Assembly: GCA_017464985.1 (NCBI GenBank)
Contig: JAFTXL010000180.1
Span: 1 to 7,120, forward strand
Reading direction: 5' to 3'
DNA length: 7,120 bases
Source: Clostridia bacterium
Lineage (GTDB): Bacteria > Bacillota_A > Clostridia > UBA1212
The number at the start of each line of letters is the position of its first letter. Within the stretch, counting starts at the first letter, position 1. Under the pieces are notes generated by a model. That model did no database searches. It was not told where the DNA came from and saw only the letters and a program-made list of their open reading frames with translations. Below are positions 1 to 7,110 of the stretch, in pieces. A program made the translations under genes and the position numbers.

Positions 1-3000
1 CCGAAGTTCCGGGGTTTTGTCCATCAGCGTCTGTGCCTTGAGCGCCGCTGTTGCTGCTGTCGCCGCTCTGTCCGTCACCGTCCGTGCCTTGATCTCCGCT
101 GTTGCTGCTGTCGCCGCTCTGTCCGTCACCGTCCGTGCCTTGATCGCCGCTGCCGCTGCTGTCGCCGCTCTGTCCGTCACCGTCTGTGCCTTGATCGCCG
201 CTGTCGCTGCTGTCGCCGCCCTGTCCGTCACCATCCGTGCCTTGATCGTCTCCATTGCCTCCGTCATTATCGCCGTCACCGTCATCAGATACAGCGTCCC
301 ATGCCGCATACAACGTGATATCACCCATTGTTCCGCTTTCGATTTCATATATCTCATCGTTCAAATCTTCATCTGTATACCAGCCTGCAAAATCATATCC
401 TTCTTTTGTAGGGTCTGCAAGCTCTACAGTGTCACTTTCAACATTATATATGTCCGGATTTTTATCGGAATTTATACCGCCGTCAAGCACATACTTAATA
501 CTGTAGTCGATTACGTTAAACTCAGCATACAGAGTTATATCACCTGCCATACCGTTTACGATTCTTTCTATCTTGTCAGTCAAATCTTCATCTGTATACC
601 AGCCTTTAAACTCATATCCGTCTTTTTCAGGATCATTAATCACTACCGGTATATTTTCAAGATTGTACAAATTCGGATTATCTGCGGAGTTTGTACCGCC
701 GTCAAGCACATACGTAATACTGTAATCTATCGCATCAAACTTAGCATACAATGTTATATCGCCGTTTGACCCCCTTTGAATCTTTTCAATACCGTCAGTC
801 ATAGCTTCATCAGTATACCAGCCAGCAAATGCGTAACCTTCCTTAGTGGGTTCTGCAAGCTCTATAGTATCGCTTTCAATATTGTACGTGCCCGGATTTT
901 TCTCGGAATTCACACCACCGTACATTACATAGCTGATAAAATAGTCTACAGGTTCAAAATCGGCATACAAAGTAATATCTCCCGTCATACCTTTTTGAAT
1001 CACATCTATACTGTCAGTCATAGTTTCATCTGTGTACCAGCCTGTAAATGAGTAACCTTCCTTAGTAGGTTCTGCAAGCTCTATGGGAACATTTTCAAAG
1101 TTATACGAAGACGGATTATCCGCAGAATTTGCGCCGCCGTCAAGTACATACGAGATGTTGTAATCAATCGGTTTATATTCCGCGTACAGATTTATATCTC
1201 CTGTCAATGCGGCAGGATCAATTTTGTTGTCTGTAACCGGCTGTAAACACGTTTCGTCCCAATACCATCCCTCGAAAGTGTATCCGAGTTTTGAAGCCGG
1301 ATACAGTTCTATTTCTGCCGATTCGCTGGTCAGTACACCTGGATTATTAGCACTGTTTAATCCGCCGTCCAAATGGTATGTCACACTGTAAACATCCACA
1401 AGTTTCATTTTTACAGTATTGGAGCAGGCAGGTGTATAATACACATTATTGCCCTCACTTCCGCCATAATAAATCGCATACAGTTCATATGTTCCTCTCG
1501 ACAGATTTTCAACATCTATATCAAGTTTAACTGCTCCGTTTGCAATATAGCCTTTACCCAACAGAGTCTCCGTGCCATCCTCATTGCGGCGCATCAGATT
1601 CATATGGCCAGAAGAGGGAACAGGAGTATCCGCTCCACTTGCATTTTTGAGATTTATTTCAACATTGGCAATCTTTGTACCGGTTTCAAGGTAATACGTA
1701 TCACCTTTGAGAACTGCATCTGATTCGTTTTTCAAAGTCAGCTCAGCGATAAGGGCGTGAATTGTCGAATACGTATCGTCCTCCATTACCCAGACAGTAG
1801 CAGTCTTGGATATCACACTCTTTACACTGCTCGATTTCCGCTGAGAAGCAATTACACGGTAATAGCTCTTTCCAAGTTCAGCGGGAACCTGCGGAAGTGT
1901 ATAATCTTTTTGGGTTGCTCCGCTTATGTTCTCCCAAGAACCTTCACTGGCAGACGCATCTTCAACATATACCTGCCACTGATACGTCAAAGTTGCATCA
2001 TCCATACCTTCACCCGTTTTGGCCTCAGATGTTAAAGTCACAGATTCCGGGGGCTCTTCTACACTGTATATTACATTCTTCGGTTCAAGAGTAAAATACG
2101 GCATAGTTACATCGTCATCTTTGGTAACCGCAGTAACCCAGTTGCTTAAAACGCTCTCTCTCGTACCTGAGTACGATTTCACAGCAAATTCGTATTCTGT
2201 TGCAGGGTCAAGTCCTGTCGCAATAAAGTATGTTTTTTCTGTCGTGCCGATAGAAAATGCATTACCCAAATTATCTTTTATAAATACCTCATAACTGTCT
2301 GCAGGGCGATAATCTTTTTCCTCCCACTTGAGTATAACTTCATTTTCCGTTACAGCATAAACCCTTAAATCCACGGGCAAACTAGGAGGCACAGAGTCTT
2401 CACTTATTCCGGGTACAGTATATCCTACTACATAAGGGTAATCGTCAAGCCCATATAAATCCGAAGTATCGTCACCGTTTCCTCCTTTATTTATATCAAG
2501 CTGATAAACCGCCATCTTGGTGCTGTACTTATAATCTTCATCCGTACCTTCAGGCATATTTGTAAACGCTGCAGAAAAAGACAGACCCCTTGAGTCAGAC
2601 TCCACCCATACGGCACCGCCGCCTGCCGCCAATGTAAGACCAATCTGACCTGAAGTCTCAGATGCAAACCAAATGCTTGTTTCGGTCTTTCCTGCAACAT
2701 AAAGATCTCCGGTTAAATCCACATGGAAACCATGCGCTTTTGAAACACTTTCTTCAACCGAATAAGAAAGGCTTGTTACACCGCCGCCTACATCTACCGT
2801 CACACTTTTGGAAATATTCATACTGTCTTCAACAACATTTCCGGGAAGCTTTAGCTCTTCTTCACTTTCAGGATATGTAGAAGGATCGCCGATTGTCTTT
2901 TTTGCAATCATATCCTCTGTAATTGGCTCAATATTCGTCAATTTACCACTTGCAGTAAATTCGGTTACAAGTTTATTGTATTCCTCCAACGTTATTGCCG

Positions 3001-5305
3001 AAAATGTAGGTTCAAGCTGTACAGAAATACTACATTCCTGTAGTTCTCCGCCGATAAGGTCGCCCACCTTGTACGGGCATGTTTCCCCGTATAATTCTTC
3101 GTACGATGCAATAAACGCCTCGTCTGCCTTTCCCTCCGGAACCCAGATATTGTACTTATAGTACACTATAGGCACGGCAAATATGACAGCATAGTCTTCA
3201 CCCGCAGTAACTTCATATTTCCACGATTTTGTGTACGACGTTGCAGTACTCCGGTTTCCTATATAGCCGCCCATAAGAGAAAAGCCGAAACCTCCTCCGA
3301 ACATTCCGTTGTTGCCCATAAATCCTACGCCTGCCAGACCTGTAACATTGAGTGCCAAACCGAGTTCCACGCCCCAGTCCGAATCAATACCCGAGCCGTC
3401 TCCGTATGTTACTTCAAATGCAACTGTTCCGGGGTTTACATCGTAATCAAGTTCTTTCCAATACGGAGGACTCTGAAGCACCGTGAGAAGCTCCGGTGCG
3501 CTCCAGCCGTATTCCTTACCCGTATATTCTACATATACGGTGTCCTGATCTGAATCAATCGGGCAAATCGAAATAAATGTACCGTCATCGTCTTCATTCT
3601 TCTTATTTATATAATCATTATTTGTGACACTGCTTGTAATCGCAGAACTTTCTTCCCATATCCATATAATATCATAATAGATATTGTCATCGTTTAAGTT
3701 AACATGGTCTCCTGCAAGAACCACTATCTGTTCAACAGAAGAACTTGCCGAAGAAAAAGTCGCGCCGTATGCGTTGCTTATAAATGCATTGTTATCTCCG
3801 CCCAGCGAAATTTTTTTCTCCTTTACAAAAGAACCTGCGCTGAGAATATTTTTTTCACTTGAACCGCTTGAATCAGCACCGGAAAATTTGAATACAACGC
3901 CCTCAAGGAAAACAGAATCACTGTTACTTGCAGCGTGCAGCTTTGCCGCGGCTATCGCCGCAGGTTCCATCATGGCCTCTGAAACCTTAAGGTCACCGTG
4001 AGCTTCTACCTGTTTCGGACTATCCCACACCTTCTCATATTTTTTTGAAGAGGTATTCCATGTGATAATTTGTATAAAGTTTTTACTGTCTGATATTGAA
4101 CCCTTGTCAGAATTATCGTCCCAGTCGTTATTTATATAGCCTCCTACAATCAGTTCTTCCACACCGTTTCCGTTCACGTCGGCATCTACAGACGATGAAA
4201 AACGCATTCTGTTGCTTCCGTAAGTCATATTTGTATCCAGATAACGTGTTTCCATCTGTCCGTTGCTTCCGCAGTGATAAATACCCATGGCAGAGCTGTG
4301 TCCGTAATCGTCACAATCCCCGTCTCTTGCGTTGCTGATATTTATAACCAAATCATCCTGACCGGAAATGCTTGTAGTGTACAAGCTTACAACAGGCATA
4401 TGCCAGTCATTGTATCTCATATTAAACTTATTTGACTTTCCGTTATTAAGCTCACTTACATATATTCTGTCTTTTTCAGAAAGACTTTTATCAGCGTTTA
4501 CTTCAAAAATAATAATACATGCATTATCACCGTATTTAGACGGAACATACGCAGCAGCTTCTTCTTTTCCATCATTATCATAATCGCCTGCTGTAAGAGC
4601 AACATATGATTTAGATGTGTCTGCCGTTATTTCCCATACAAAATCGCCGCAGTCACTGTCATCATTTGTCAACCTGTATGTTGTTGCCGCTCCATCTTGC
4701 CATTTATCAGTATCTTCATTCAAATCGTAAATACGCAGATCCTGGAAACTGTCCTTTCCCTTATCGCGGTTTACATACAGCATTGTTTCAATAATTTCAT
4801 CCGCACCGTCTCCGTCATAGTCAATAGCGCACGCATTATGTGTCTGAACCTCAATCGGATCATCATCCTCCTCATAGTTATCTGAGAAGGACACTTCGTT
4901 TCCTATAAGGTCATTATCCATATTGTTAAAGTTAAATGCACTCGAAGAAGTCTCACTTGTATTGTTCATGACACGGAAAGAACCTTTAAAATTACTTGTT
5001 CTGTTCATATCTCCGACATACAGCTCGGTGAGATAAACAGGTTCAAAATCCTCCATCGGATGCTCCGTGTTCGACGGATCAAACTCACTTGGTGAATCCG
5101 TAACCAAACCAAACGAACCGTACTCAGCCGCAGACAGCACGTTGCTCTCTCCGCTGTACGACTTAGCGGAATACAATTGTGCCGCGCTTGCTGTCATATA
5201 ATCGACATCTGATGTACCCTCCGGCAGCATCCAGAACGATGACAAAATCGCAGCAGCAATAATTCCGCAAAGAATACGTTTTAGAAACATGTTTTGCTTA
5301 CTCAT
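1..5305 (-). CDS. Giant secreted multidomain surface protein (FG-GAP/VCBS, FN3, Ig-like, InlB B-repeats), 3' end outside window
   Basis: The frame is open from ATG 5305 to the left edge (at least 1768 residues; no stop seen). The start is supported by an AGGGGGA ribosome binding site 7 bases upstream and a signal peptide: KR at 9-10, hydrophobic core about 11-27, likely cleavage near TASAA (38-42). Residues about 150-400 carry FG-GAP/VCBS-like acidic loops (DYDGDG 162-167, DYDNDG 241-246, DADVNGNG 374-381), as in calcium-binding propellers. Residues about 400-970 match no family I know and are Ser/Gly rich. Then come FN3 (973-1062), an Ig-like domain with YQWQV (about 1068-1175), a second Ig-like domain (about 1189-1304), five InlB/Flg_new repeats with GWYTDE cores (1307-1672), and an acidic Gly/Ser/Asp linker (1673-1768). 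Inference: an exported adhesin or carbohydrate/host-contact protein. No catalytic motif was recognised. The anchor (sortase motif, dockerin or other) would lie beyond the window. Confidence 0.95.
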   Translation of the reverse strand, partial: MSKQNMFLKRILCGIIAAAILSSFWMLPEGTSDVDYMTASAAQLYSAKSYSGESNVLSAAEYGSFGLVTDSPSEFDPSNTEHPMEDFEPVYLTELYVGDMNRTSNFKGSFRVMNNTSETSSSAFNFNNMDNDLIGNEVSFSDNYEEDDDPIEVQTHNACAIDYDGDGADEIIETMLYVNRDKGKDSFQDLRIYDLNEDTDKWQDGAATTYRLTNDDSDCGDFVWEITADTSKSYVALTAGDYDNDGKEEAAAYVPSKYGDNACIIIFEVNADKSLSEKDRIYVSELNNGKSNKFNMRYNDWHMPVVSLYTTSISGQDDLVINISNARDGDCDDYGHSSAMGIYHCGSNGQMETRYLDTNMTYGSNRMRFSSSVDADVNGNGVEELIVGGYINNDWDDNSDKGSISDSKNFIQIITWNTSSKKYEKVWDSPKQVEAHGDLKVSEAMMEPAAIAAAKLHAASNSDSVFLEGVVFKFSGADSSGSSEKNILSAGSFVKEKKISLGGDNNAFISNAYGATFSSASSSVEQIVVLAGDHVNLNDDNIYYDIIWIWEESSAITSSVTNNDYINKKNEDDDGTFISICPIDSDQDTVYVEYTGKEYGWSAPELLTVLQSPPYWKELDYDVNPGTVAFEVTYGDGSGIDSDWGVELGLALNVTGLAGVGFMGNNGMFGGGFGFSLMGGYIGNRSTATSYTKSWKYEVTAGEDYAVIFAVPIVYYKYNIWVPEGKADEAFIASYEELYGETCPYKVGDLIGGELQECSISVQLEPTFSAITLEEYNKLVTEFTASGKLTNIEPITEDMIAKKTIGDPSTYPESEEELKLPGNVVEDSMNISKSVTVDVGGGVTSLSYSVEESVSKAHGFHVDLTGDLYVAGKTETSIWFASETSGQIGLTLAAGGGAVWVESDSRGLSFSAAFTNMPEGTDEDYKYSTKMAVYQLDINKGGNGDDTSDLYGLDDYPYVVGYTVPGISEDSVPPSLPVDLRVYAVTENEVILKWEEKDYRPADSYEVFIKDNLGNAFSIGTTEKTYFIATGLDPATEYEFAVKSYSGTRESVLSNWVTAVTKDDDVTMPYFTLEPKNVIYSVEEPPESVTLTSEAKTGEGMDDATLTYQWQVYVEDASASEGSWENISGATQKDYTLPQVPAELGKSYYRVIASQRKSSSVKSVISKTATVWVMEDDTYSTIHALIAELTLKNESDAVLKGDTYYLETGTKIANVEINLKNASGADTPVPSSGHMNLMRRNEDGTETLLGKGYIANGAVKLDIDVENLSRGTYELYAIYYGGSEGNNVYYTPACSNTVKMKLVDVYSVTYHLDGGLNSANNPGVLTSESAEIELYPASKLGYTFEGWYWDETCLQPVTDNKIDPAALTGDINLYAEYKPIDYNISYVLDGGANSADNPSSYNFENVPIELAEPTKEGYSFTGWYTDETMTDSIDVIQKGMTGDITLYADFEPVDYFISYVMYGGVNSEKNPGTYNIESDTIELAEPTKEGYAFAGWYTDEAMTDGIEKIQRGSNGDITLYAKFDAIDYSITYVLDGGTNSADNPNLYNLENIPVVINDPEKDGYEFKGWYTDEDLTDKIERIVNGMAGDITLYAEFNVIDYSIKYVLDGGINSDKNPDIYNVESDTVELADPTKEGYDFAGWYTDEDLNDEIYEIESGTMGDITLYAAWDAVSDDGDGDNDGGNGDDQGTDGDGQGGDSSDSGDQGTDGDGQSGDSSGSGDQGTDGDGQSGDSSNSGDQGTDGDGQSGDSSNSGAQGTDADGQNPGTS
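17..241 (-). repeat. 51-bp tandem repeat encoding a Gly/Ser/Asp-rich linker
   Basis: Four complete 51-bp units (191-241, 140-190, 89-139, 38-88) and a partial fifth (17-37) encode 17-residue units of the type GTDGDGQSGDSSNSGDQ (residues 1689-1756 for the full units). Only a few codons differ between units. The composition is acidic and lacks hydrophobic residues, so it should be disordered. It sits after the InlB repeats, where wall-spanning linkers are usual. The GC-rich DNA contrasts with the rest of the gene, and unit number could change by slippage or recombination. Confidence 0.93.
290..1387 (-). repeat. Five tandem InlB/Listeria-Bacteroides (Flg_new) repeats
   Basis: Counting from the N-terminal side, the repeats lie at 1387-1160 (76 aa, the most diverged, GWYWDE), 1159-941, 940-722, 721-503 (73 aa each) and 502-290 (71 aa). 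Each has the plan I-x-Y-V-L-D-G-G-x-N-S, a short variable part, GYxFxGWYTDE, then GDITLYAxF. This is the InlB B-repeat, a small beta-grasp-like module typical of stalks in surface proteins of Firmicutes and Bacteroidetes. The last four are closely similar, including at DNA level, which points to recent duplication. Confidence 0.92.
2120..2389 (-). other. Fibronectin type III domain
   Basis: Residues 973-1062 follow the FN3 plan: a proline-rich start (PPSLPVDLRV), the EVILKWEE strand with the conserved Trp, SYEVFIKD, the TGLDPATEYEFAVKSYS segment with the family's L-P-x-T-x-Y core, and a closing VTAVTK. About 90 residues is the usual length. FN3 domains in bacterial surface proteins act mostly as spacers or as carbohydrate-protein adjuncts. 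Confidence 0.85.
4100..4860 (-). other. FG-GAP/VCBS-like repeat region (probable beta-propeller)
   Basis: At least three segments share the pattern of a hydrophobic strand, an acidic DxDxDG-type loop and a second hydrophobic strand: AIDYDGDGADEIIE (161-174), AGDYDNDGKEEAAAYV (239-254) and VDADVNGNGVEELIVGG (373-389). A fourth, weaker one is around SGQDDLVINIS (314-324). In FG-GAP and VCBS families such loops bind calcium and the repeats form integrin-like propellers. Three or four repeats are fewer than a closed seven-bladed propeller, so further diverged blades probably lie between 50 and 500. Confidence 0.7.
5178..5305 (-). other. Signal peptide of the giant surface protein
   Basis: Residues 1-42 have the order basic (K3, K9, R10), hydrophobic (about 11-27, ILCGIIAAAI then LSSFWML), and a polar tail ending in TASAA before Q43, a fitting signal peptidase I site. 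There is no lipobox cysteine at the end of the core; C13 sits inside it. Export through the Sec pathway follows. The polar stretch between core and AxA-type site is longer than usual, so the exact cut is uncertain. Confidence 0.75.
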
Positions 5306-5312
5306 AACACAG

Positions 5313-5319
5313 TCCCCCT
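5313..5319 (-). promoter_or_regulatory. Ribosome binding site of the giant surface protein
   Basis: Read on the minus strand this is AGGGGGA, seven bases before ATG 5305. It decides for this start over the in-frame ATG at 5290 (codon 6), which has no such site. Confidence 0.8.
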
Positions 5320-5353
5320 GTTCAACAGCATTTAAATAAAAAAATTTTTTTAG

Positions 5354-5382
5354 ATTATATATTTTTTTCTTCTGCAATACAA
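5354..5382 (-). promoter_or_regulatory. Probable sigma-A type promoter for the giant surface protein
   Basis: On the minus strand a perfect TATAAT (5359-5354) lies 17 bases after TTGTAT (5382-5377). The -35 hexamer matches consensus in three of six positions, the -10 in all six. Transcription would begin near 5347 and give a leader of about 40 bases. The region is very A/T rich, so chance matches are possible. Confidence 0.5.
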
Positions 5383-5454
5383 TATTTTTTATATGGGAAT
5401 TTGTCATTGTACGGCAAAGTACCCCGTAACTTTCAGGTCAATCACTTATGAAAG

Positions 5455-5495: not shown

Positions 5496-5545
5496 GGGCA
5501 AACGCATGAAAATTTTATAAAAAAGAGTTATTCATGCGTTTGCCC
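5496..5545. repeat. 15-bp perfect palindromic hairpin in the divergent intergenic region
   Basis: GGGCAAACGCATGAA (5496-5510) is exactly complementary to TTCATGCGTTTGCCC (5531-5545) across a 20-base A/T-rich loop. It lies between two divergent transcription units, where neither needs a terminator, and just upstream of the putative riboswitch promoter. A diverged copy lies at 6872-6914. It could be a dispersed palindromic element, a protein-binding site or a transcript structure. Confidence 0.8.
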
Positions 5546-5563
5546 CGGCATAACCGCCAGATA

Positions 5564-5593
5564 TTGAAATCATACGGCCTTATATGATAAAAT
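5564..5593 (+). promoter_or_regulatory. Probable promoter of the riboswitch-lipoprotein-ECF operon
   Basis: TTGAAA (5564-5569) and TAAAAT (5588-5593) each match consensus in five of six positions and are 18 bases apart. The start would fall near 5600, right at the 5' edge of the riboswitch core, which agrees with a short closing stem that can begin at 5600. No better pair was found between 5450 and 5600. Confidence 0.5.
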
Positions 5594-5599
5594 CCATAT

Positions 5600-5756
5600 G
5601 TTTGGAATGGAAACAGGTGTGAATCCTGTACGAGCCCGTCGCCGTGAGGTGTACTTTTATACTGATATCCTACCTGCTGCCGCAAAGCAGGGACAAGCCA
5701 TTGGATTTCCGAGAAGGCGGATAGCAGTTCTACCCAAGTCGAAATACTTTCCTTAC
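5600..5756 (+). ncRNA. Cobalamin riboswitch (aptamer)
   Basis: The order of conserved blocks fits the cobalamin riboswitch. GGAAACAGGTGTGAATCCTG (5609-5628) gives the family's GGAA-x-GGTG-x-GAATCC core, whose CAGG/CCTG arms pair. CGAGCCCGTCGCCGTGA follows, the CCCGCCACTGT-like segment. GCCATTGGATTTCCGAGAAGG is the usual GCCACTG...GAAGG module. AAGTCGAAATACTTTCC (5736-5752) is a diverged B12 box (consensus about AAGTCAGGAGACCTGCC). A short closing stem can form between GG/AA at 5604-5607 and TTCC at 5749-5752, with GT (5600-5601) facing AC (5755-5756). In this family adenosyl- or other cobalamins bind and usually lower expression of the downstream genes. The exact 5' boundary is uncertain because the B12-box partner is weak. 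Confidence 0.88.
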
Positions 5757-5811
5757 AAAACCTCGTACATAACTGCGAGCGCCGGTTAAAAGAGGAACAA
5801 TGAATATATTT
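5757..5811 (+). promoter_or_regulatory. Possible expression platform between aptamer and first gene
   Basis: AACC (5759-5762) can pair with GGTT (5784-5787), and TCG (5763-5765) with CGA (5776-5778), forming a hairpin just after the B12 box. There is no T-run behind it, so a classical transcription terminator is not seen; control of translation initiation or a loop-loop contact with the aptamer is more likely. I could not find a convincing pairing partner for the aptamer's L5-type loop, so the mechanism is open. Confidence 0.35.
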
Positions 5812-5812
5812 A

Positions 5813-5819
5813 AAGGAGA
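5813..5819 (+). promoter_or_regulatory. Ribosome binding site of the DUF4430 lipoprotein
   Basis: AAGGAGA lies eight bases before ATG 5828, a strong match to the anti-Shine-Dalgarno sequence. Confidence 0.85.
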
Positions 5820-5827
5820 ATGATTTT

Positions 5828-6310
5828 ATGAAAAAGACACGATTGAGCAAATCGTTGTCGTTCATCCTTTGCATCGTGCTTATTGCGGCTATAGCACTCA
5901 CAGCATTCGGTTGCAGCGACAACACCAATGACAGCAGTTCCGGAGCAACAACCTCCCCGGTCACTTCCGTATCCCCTGAAGCTACAGACGACTCATCTGA
6001 CAGCATCAATGTACTCGGAGAGGGATCAACAGTATTTACTTTTACCGTAACAGACACAAGAGGGAAAGAAACCTCTTTTGAAATTCACACAGATAAGGCA
6101 ATTGTCGGCGATGCACTCACAGAGCTCGGCCTCATATCCGGCGAAGAAGGTGCTTACGGACTTTATGTAAAGACCGTAAGCGGTATCACTTTGGACTATG
6201 ATAAAGATGGAAAGTATTGGGCTTTCTATGTAAACGATGAATATGCTTCTACAGGTGTGGACATGACATCAATTACGGCCGGCGCAACCTACTCATTTAA
6301 AGCAGAATAA
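5828..6310 (+). CDS. Lipoprotein with DUF4430 (transcobalamin-like C-terminal) domain, putative corrinoid capture protein
   Basis: This 160-residue protein starts with a lipoprotein signal: KK at 2-3, a hydrophobic core about 10-27, and a lipobox-like AFGC with C29 as the lipidated residue. The -3 position is Ala rather than the usual Leu, which is tolerated. A Ser/Thr/Asp-rich linker (30-61) leads to a single domain (about 62-160). Its pattern (FTFTVTD, a helix around VGDALTELGL, then YWAFYVNDEYASTGVD, and a final ATYSFK strand) is that of DUF4430, which is related to the C-terminal domain of transcobalamin and intrinsic factor. In those proteins this domain covers one face of cobalamin. Behind a cobalamin riboswitch and two bases before an ECF S component, a role in binding B12 or a related corrinoid at the outer membrane face is likely. 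This is inference; DUF4430 also occurs in other contexts. Confidence 0.9.
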   Translation: MKKTRLSKSLSFILCIVLIAAIALTAFGCSDNTNDSSSGATTSPVTSVSPEATDDSSDSINVLGEGSTVFTFTVTDTRGKETSFEIHTDKAIVGDALTELGLISGEEGAYGLYVKTVSGITLDYDKDGKYWAFYVNDEYASTGVDMTSITAGATYSFKAE

Positions 6311-6312
6311 TT

Positions 6313-6828
6313 TTGAAACTAAATGTCAGAGAAATAGCTATCTTCGGTATGCTGGGAGCGATGATGTTCGCATCAAAACTGATCATGGAACTGTTTCCGA
6401 ACATCCATCTTCTCGGCGTATTTACGATAGCTATAACTGTTGTTTACAGACAAAAGGCATTGTACCCAATATACATTTTTATCTTTATTCTGGGACTTTG
6501 GAACGGATTTGCCATATGGTGGATACCTTATCTTTATTTATGGACAGTATTATGGGGCATTACAATGTTGTTGCCTAAAAAAATGCCCAAGAAAATAGCT
6601 CCAATCATATACATGACCGTATGTGCCCTGCACGGATTCCTGTACGGAACACTGTACGCACCGTTTCAGGCATTTGCGTTCGGAATGAATTTTGATTCCA
6701 TGATAGCATGGATTATCGCAGGACTTCCGTGGGATTTTGTTCACGGCGTCAGTAATTTCTTCTGCGGGCTGCTGATTATGCCGATTATATTGGTACTGAA
6801 AAGAGCATCCCAAAATATTTCACGATAA
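6313..6828 (+). CDS. ECF transporter S component, probably for cobalamin or a cobalamin precursor
   Basis: This 171-residue, very hydrophobic protein has about six membrane segments (about 8-26, 31-45, 49-66, 70-88, 95-118, 144-163), the size and layout of S components of energy-coupling factor transporters. The first helix holds the AxxxA motif (A16-A20) that S components use to contact EcfT. It binds the vitamin and works with a shared EcfA-EcfA'-EcfT module, absent here, as in group II systems. The TTG start, two bases after the lipoprotein stop, is chosen because it keeps the REIAIFGMLGA segment typical of such proteins; the next in-frame start (ATG 6349) would cut helix 1. There is no clear ribosome binding site, so translation is probably coupled to the upstream gene. 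Substrate comes only from the riboswitch and the DUF4430 neighbour; CbrT- or CblT-like function cannot be told apart by eye. Confidence 0.88.
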   Translation: MKLNVREIAIFGMLGAMMFASKLIMELFPNIHLLGVFTIAITVVYRQKALYPIYIFIFILGLWNGFAIWWIPYLYLWTVLWGITMLLPKKMPKKIAPIIYMTVCALHGFLYGTLYAPFQAFAFGMNFDSMIAWIIAGLPWDFVHGVSNFFCGLLIMPIILVLKRASQNISR

Positions 6829-7018: not shown

Positions 7019-7110
7019 AATTCCACTTCTTAATGCGGTTCTGTAAAAGTAGATTTTACTCTTACAGAACCGCATTATTAACAAAAAAAACTTCCCTTAA
7101 AGTGGAAATT
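7019..7110. repeat. Nested long palindrome
   Basis: A 16-bp perfect stem (7031-7046 with 7062-7077, TAATGCGGTTCTGTAA) continues after one mismatch with AGTA/TACT (7048-7051 with 7057-7060). Eight-base arms TTCCACTT (7021-7028) and AAGTGGAA (7100-7107) lie outside it. No T-run follows on either strand at terminator distance. It may be a palindromic repeat element, the end of a small non-autonomous element, or a strong transcript barrier. Confidence 0.75.

Follow-up and report, generated by a model that had tools for sequence, protein, structure and literature searches.

A cobalamin-riboswitch cassette joining a transcobalamin-like lipoprotein to a CbrT-type ECF S component in Clostridia

For ECF vitamin transporters, the S component in the membrane is taken to be the protein that binds the substrate (PMC5997447). 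One of the described systems closest to the locus presented here is ECF-CbrT of Lactobacillus delbrueckii (PDB 6fnp), whose S component comes from the same family. CbrT had been predicted by Rodionov et al. in 2009 (as given in PMC5997447) and, in the available part of PMC5997447, the purified complex transports cobalamin (Cbl) in liposomes with a KM of 2.1 nM, CbrT has a binding Kd of 9.2 nM and carries cobinamide as well, and a lipoprotein is not mentioned. The genes are given there in the order nrdJ-cbrS-cbrT-pduO, cbrS being named once and CbrT characterised (PMC5997447).

Another precedent is the work of Burroughs et al. (2007), who defined the SLBB superfamily and, in the available text, reported transcobalamin-like surface proteins in low-GC Gram-positives, encoded in operons with CbiQ and CbiO and usually found in organisms without key enzymes of B12 synthesis (PMC1796856). 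They predicted that these surface proteins scavenge B12 together with the CbiQ/CbiO-like transporters, and that the animal B12 carriers are of bacterial (Gram-positive) origin; a reviewer of the paper cautioned that the ligands may differ. The emphasis, as far as the available text goes, was on multi-domain toroid proteins beside motor genes, with stand-alone domains also noted (PMC1796856). On the animal side, crystals of the human beta domain by itself have been obtained with CNCbl and with cobinamide, holo-transcobalamin forms from the separated domains only upon cobalamin addition, and splitting transcobalamin (TC) into its domains weakens cobalamin binding relative to whole TC, according to the available part of PMC5599065.

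The window analysed here is the whole 7,120-nucleotide stretch of contig JAFTXL010000180.1, in which an initial annotation made from the letters alone had pointed to a cobalamin riboswitch followed by a DUF4430 lipoprotein gene and the gene of an ECF S component. Its features are as follows.

5558..5769, plus strand: cobalamin riboswitch (RF00174 match; cmscan 44.8 bits, E 5.7e-9)
5564..5593, plus strand: promoter-like site TTGAAA-18-TAAAAT with extended -10, within the 5' part of the Rfam match
5812..5820, plus strand: ribosome-binding site AAAGGAGAA ahead of the lipoprotein gene, by eye
5828..6310, plus strand: lipoprotein gene, 160 amino acids (ORF, PF14478, alignments and fold)
6023..6307, plus strand: transcobalamin-beta-like fold, residues 66-160 (pLDDT 95-98 in blocks)
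6313..6828, plus strand: CbrT-type ECF S component gene, 171 amino acids, TTG start (ORF, CbrT profile and fold)
2-5407, minus strand: divergent gene of a secreted surface protein, 1802 residues (ORF and family match)

A gap of two bases separates the lipoprotein gene from the S component gene. The divergent gene is transcribed away from the cassette; its product carries a fibronectin III domain, five Listeria-Bacteroides repeat matches and an acidic Gly/Asp/Ser repeat tail that continues past the window edge, and is taken to be unrelated to the cassette. Two inverted repeats recognised by eye, one upstream of the cassette (about 5496-5546, 15 bases around GGGCAAACGCATGAA) and one downstream (7020-7088, ~20 base pairs), may be terminators or mobile repeats.

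The riboswitch proposed upstream of the pair is borne out by the RF00174 score (44.8 bits against a curated cut-off of 31.5) and by a 30-sequence alignment in which 23 of the 35 predicted pairs have changes on both sides. The transcribed aptamer probably starts near position 5600. The promoter-like site at 5564-5593 matches 10 of 12 consensus positions, and 9 sites were found in the region where 4.9 are expected from shuffles. A site with at least 9 of 12 matches was present within the 75 bases ahead of the aptamer core in 24 of 30 leaders (window counted), a score reached by 11% of mononucleotide shuffles, and in 21 of the 30 the -10 of the highest-scoring site stops 14-18 bases short of the core. 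Eight of the riboswitch matches span only about positions 45-169 of the model. The aptamer may be a shortened version that lacks the outer 5' helices of the Rfam model; its modest score would then be accounted for. As separate observations, the promoter-like -10 often sits where the Rfam model places these outer helices (in the window and 29 other leaders), and two loci have tandem riboswitches ahead of the pair (L007, 1000-1190 and 1472-1648; L033, 3705-3895 and 4286-4488), one strong (105-107 bits) and one weak (45-46 bits) in each. One relative's contig (C17 of G308, holding L050 and neighbours) has four cobalamin riboswitches in about 7 kb, one of them preceding the pair.

DUF4430 is the only family over the cut-off in the lipoprotein (PF14478, 32.4 against 23.8 bits), as had been claimed. 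The protein consists of a signal peptide, a lipobox with its Cys at residue 29, a low-complexity linker and one transcobalamin-type beta domain. The signal peptide was called from the hydrophobic stretch and the lipobox, by alignment and script; Cys29 follows this stretch and is invariant in the lipoprotein alignments, and the script found GC or AC at the lipobox in all 79 paired relatives. A structure model was built from a 65-row alignment (window, 60 loci and 4 database proteins), and here the suggested parallel with transcobalamin found its support: 17 of the 19 Foldseek matches (E <= 1e-3) are transcobalamin, haptocorrin or intrinsic factor chains. The other two are chains of 3u7z, RUMGNA_00854 of Ruminococcus gnavus, the closest solved relative of the lipoprotein, titled a putative metal-binding protein. 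The model thus identifies the only folded domain as the beta domain of transcobalamin, a predicted beta-grasp nearest to the B12 carriers, with a helix (93-99) and then two strands (103-108 and 111-117) placed as expected for the cobalamin-contacting beta-hairpin insert. The link to the animal carriers is one of fold: sequence identity to transcobalamin, haptocorrin and intrinsic factor is only 12-17%, and a direct sequence link was rejected, the lipoprotein profile finding no chain of these three in the PDB at E <= 10. In contrast to the animal proteins, the lipoprotein has no alpha-toroid domain, is membrane-anchored and would feed a membrane transporter, whereas the animal carriers feed an endocytic receptor.

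The second gene had been read as an ECF S component, and both sequence and fold agree, the sequence pointing more precisely to the CbrT type. Family searches on the two proteins gave DUF4430 for the lipoprotein and, for the S component, nothing in Pfam or NCBIfam at E <= 0.1. The only PDB chain found with the S profile at E <= 10 was CbrT (6fnp), and hhalign gave a probability of 97.8 for the S family against CbrT and of 0.2 and 0.05 for two control groups; identity to Lactobacillales CbrT in the profile alignment is about 20%. In the reverse direction, the CbrT profile scored 39.9 bits on the S component and at most 13.3 on controls taken by script from 45 loci, of which a filter on length and hydropathy removed 9, leaving 36 rows; these are 33 distinct genes, with duplicates in L190/L207, L189/L210 and L195/L222, the last pair giving the top control score. 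Profile tests also found the protein unlike the other S components in the relatives' genomes, and the CbrT test makes an S component for another vitamin unlikely. The structure model (65-row alignment, window and 64 loci) had no Foldseek match with E <= 1e-3; an S-component fold is supported, with a clear separation of S components only in the VIA second look, and CbrT 6fnp was not among the matches listed in either fold search. The profile comparisons place the protein in the CbrT family, and the modelled fold is that of an S component.

One scan for relatives of the S component yielded 163 confirmed loci, and the best 80 were examined. The gene pair is conserved, with a DUF4430-type lipoprotein ORF directly upstream of the S gene in 79 of these 80 loci; in the remaining one (L025), the S gene has no lipoprotein gene before it. 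The spacing between the two genes was -1 in 27, +2 in 21 and -4 in 11 of the 79 pairs, and from -4 to +3 bases in 69. A riboswitch at gathering score lies within 1 kb upstream of the pair in 59 of the 79 (within 150 bases in 50) and was not found there in the other 20, two of which are contigs that end early. It should be noted that the genomes behind these counts are related and not independent. Chance adjacency of the two genes is ruled out by the 79 of 80 relatives and by pairs in other lineages. A wider operon was rejected, as no third gene recurs near the pair: among other ORFs of at least 100 amino acids within 6 kb, each family was confined to 17 of the 80 loci or fewer, and a motor gene was not recurrent.

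The pairing extends beyond close relatives. Among 299 Bacillota genomes, DUF4430 was found in 91 and the S profile in 93; both were present in 86, DUF4430 only in 5, S only in 7 and neither in 201, a co-occurrence partly favoured by construction because the S profile used includes three S proteins chosen beside DUF4430. At least 77 of the 97 S hits have a listed DUF4430 hit no more than 10 kb away (a lower bound, since four second S fragments and some secondary DUF4430 rows are omitted), all on the same strand and 76 with DUF4430 upstream; of these co-locations, only 8 are directly adjacent, and 66 have the two genes separated by 1-10 kb in larger clusters.

The gene contexts point to B12, judging by the predicted neighbours. 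The order is riboswitch-DUF4430-S in G018 and riboswitch-DUF4430-S-adenosyltransferase in G272, nrdJ-adenosyltransferase-DUF4430-S in L. plantarum and nrdJ-DUF4430-S-adenosyltransferase in Lactobacillus intestinalis, where we take the adenosyltransferase genes to be PduO. In a Lactococcus plasmid, DUF4430 and S are separated by nrdJ and an adenosyltransferase gene. A fixed gene order is not universal, and an E. faecium plasmid and G296 have S before DUF4430. The L. delbrueckii order nrdJ-cbrS-cbrT-pduO is the same as that of L. intestinalis and, because the two orders are equal, cbrS is probably the DUF4430 gene. Compared with the L. delbrueckii locus as published, the window pair is preceded by a cobalamin riboswitch. 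The cluster of G041 (riboswitch, a protein with SLH, squalene-cyclase-type toroid and DUF4430, a second DUF4430 protein, EcfT, a double EcfA and S) reads as a complete ECF importer accompanied by two surface proteins of the transcobalamin-like kind. Among five large clusters that were fetched, the riboswitch is in front in L150 and L152 and behind the S gene in L151 and L154; none was found in L153, whose fetched stretch ends near the first gene, and in L151, L153 and L154 the upstream end may fall outside the fetched stretch. A side observation from L151 is that the S-profile match lies within an 886-residue frame (9929-12589) whose start resembles that of an ECF ATPase, so that EcfA and EcfS may be fused there; several other S-profile matches sit in frames of 740-1060 residues.

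The B12 physiology of the relatives was examined in 15 genomes hand-picked from the 80 loci, many of them metagenome assemblies of uncertain completeness. EcfT (CbiQ) is present in all 15, the window's own genome being outside this sample, and so is a B12-binding domain (14 over the cut-off). The corrin-ring gene CbiC was found in 4, and a FecCD permease over the cut-off in 6; all nine genomes without such a permease were also without a CbiC match. The BtuCDF importer is likewise a system in which an extracytoplasmic binding protein feeds a membrane importer for corrinoids. The fold of BtuF is unrelated to that of the lipoprotein, and no FecCD permease, as in a BtuCDF-type system, scored over the cut-off in those 9 of 15 genomes. 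The riboswitch of the pair is the only cobalamin riboswitch found in nine genomes (once below the gathering score), not quite the same nine as those without FecCD, and one of several in two. No riboswitch was found ahead of the pair in the other four, three of which have riboswitches elsewhere only and one none. By these CbiC, FecCD and riboswitch counts, no better candidate for taking up corrinoids than the pair emerges in many of these species, a reading to be taken with caution as many of the assemblies are incomplete.

The idea of B12 scavenging by such proteins thus has its precedent in the available text of Burroughs et al. (2007), with which the window shares the domain, the predicted role and the type of motor (CbiQ/CbiO = EcfT/EcfA); what is added here is the CbrT partner, the riboswitch, a lone lipid-anchored beta domain closely coupled to an S component gene, and the genome counts (PMC1796856). 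No description of a lipoprotein-CbrT pair was found in searches of open-licence PMC papers. The riboswitch-DUF4430-S cassette of the initial annotation is confirmed as an observation, and its interpretation is partly supported, well grounded but unproven. Two outcomes that the annotation had named as refuting it, a missing riboswitch hit and the lack of a conserved gene pair in related genomes, did not occur. We consider it likely that the cassette is a corrinoid-uptake operon with a capture lipoprotein and a CbrT-family S component. From the riboswitch family, low cellular cobalamin would permit expression of both genes, and their close coupling would ensure that both proteins are made together. 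The lipid-anchored lipoprotein most likely binds the corrinoid outside the membrane, as the isolated human beta domain suggests by analogy, and would hand it over to the S component. The latter would then move the corrinoid through the membrane, docked on the housekeeping EcfA-EcfA'-EcfT motor, whose genes lie elsewhere. The beta domain of animals partners an alpha-toroid, which is missing here, and the S component itself may contribute the opposite side of the binding site; alternatively, the lipoprotein may simply concentrate the ligand at the membrane. The boldest version, which we regard as speculative and probably wrong, is a split transcobalamin in which the tethered beta domain and the S component form one corrinoid site, the S component replacing the alpha-toroid; the importer would gain an extracytoplasmic subunit, and the animal carriers would descend from part of an importer whose membrane half was lost.

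It could also be that the S component imports the corrinoid alone and the lipoprotein has another job, for example to stabilise or position the S component or to strip corrinoids of their upper ligands. This agrees with transport by ECF-CbrT of L. delbrueckii with no partner mentioned in the available text (PMC5997447), with the S gene of L025 and with an E. faecalis plasmid where cbrT lies beside nrdJ and no DUF4430 gene is annotated nearby, in an incomplete gene table. We hold this alternative to be unlikely. The lipoprotein is modelled with the fold of a domain that holds corrinoids, CNCbl is bound in crystals of the human domain alone (available part of PMC5599065), and the larger relative in L150 adds a squalene-cyclase-type toroid, as a full binder would. 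As ECF-CbrT transports with no lipoprotein mentioned in the available account (PMC5997447), the capture lipoprotein of the preferred reading is, by analogy, more likely a helper than an obligate subunit. A helper boosting capture at very low corrinoid, or setting which cobamides enter, fits both lines of evidence.

Cobalt and precursor transporters can also sit under cobalamin riboswitches, which counts for another alternative, that the pair moves a different B12-related compound: cobinamide or an incomplete corrinoid, a lower-ligand base, or cobalt. The title of 3u7z as a putative metal-binding protein and the transport of cobinamide by CbrT, reported in the available text of PMC5997447, speak in the same direction. 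Against it stands CbrT as the sole PDB chain matching the S profile at E <= 10 and, for cobalt, the 11 of 15 genomes in which CbiC was not found, because there cobalt alone would not yield a corrinoid. We hold this alternative to be unlikely; the observations here fit cobinamide as well as cobalamin.

In five genomes, the pair sits in a different cluster, made up of a nickel-pincer isomerase, a short-chain dehydrogenase, DUF4430, S, a biotin carrier and the beta subunit of a Na+-pumping decarboxylase. The arrangement is full in L156, L157 and L158, and contig ends truncate it in L160 and L161. Family scans cover L156 (834-5668, isomerase group 22), and the other four were assigned from the similarity of their protein starts. 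In none of these five clusters was a riboswitch found at gathering score, and the ligand of their pair, going by the neighbouring genes, may be other than a corrinoid. These clusters and the warning of the reviewer in the available text of the 2007 paper (PMC1796856) are what favours a B12-unrelated ligand in part of the family, with the B12 link of the window's clade coming mainly from the riboswitch, but we find this highly improbable, as that clade, two Lactobacillales plasmids, G272, G018, L150 and L152 link DUF4430 and S to the riboswitch, nrdJ or a cobalamin adenosyltransferase.

If the corrinoid-uptake reading is true, a conserved transcobalamin-type lipoprotein beside CbrT, preceded by a riboswitch, would alter the picture of substrate binding by the S component only, as far as B12 is concerned. 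The pair would be a candidate for the main B12 uptake system of many gut Clostridia, among them probable corrinoid auxotrophs whose genomes gave no BtuC-type permease over the cut-off. The cassette is also a compact test of the 2007 proposal on the Gram-positive origin of the animal B12 carriers, and bacteria and animals may catch B12 with the same small domain. The prediction is easily testable, with one small soluble domain and one S component.

Finally, there are DUF4430 proteins of about 250-290 residues (e.g., P0121, P0125, P0129, P0156, P0158, P0193, P0196, P0207 and P0219). The nine that were read contain the domain twice in a row, an arrangement in which a single ligand could be held between the copies, and a match to such tandem proteins was found in 25 of the 147 genomes searched.
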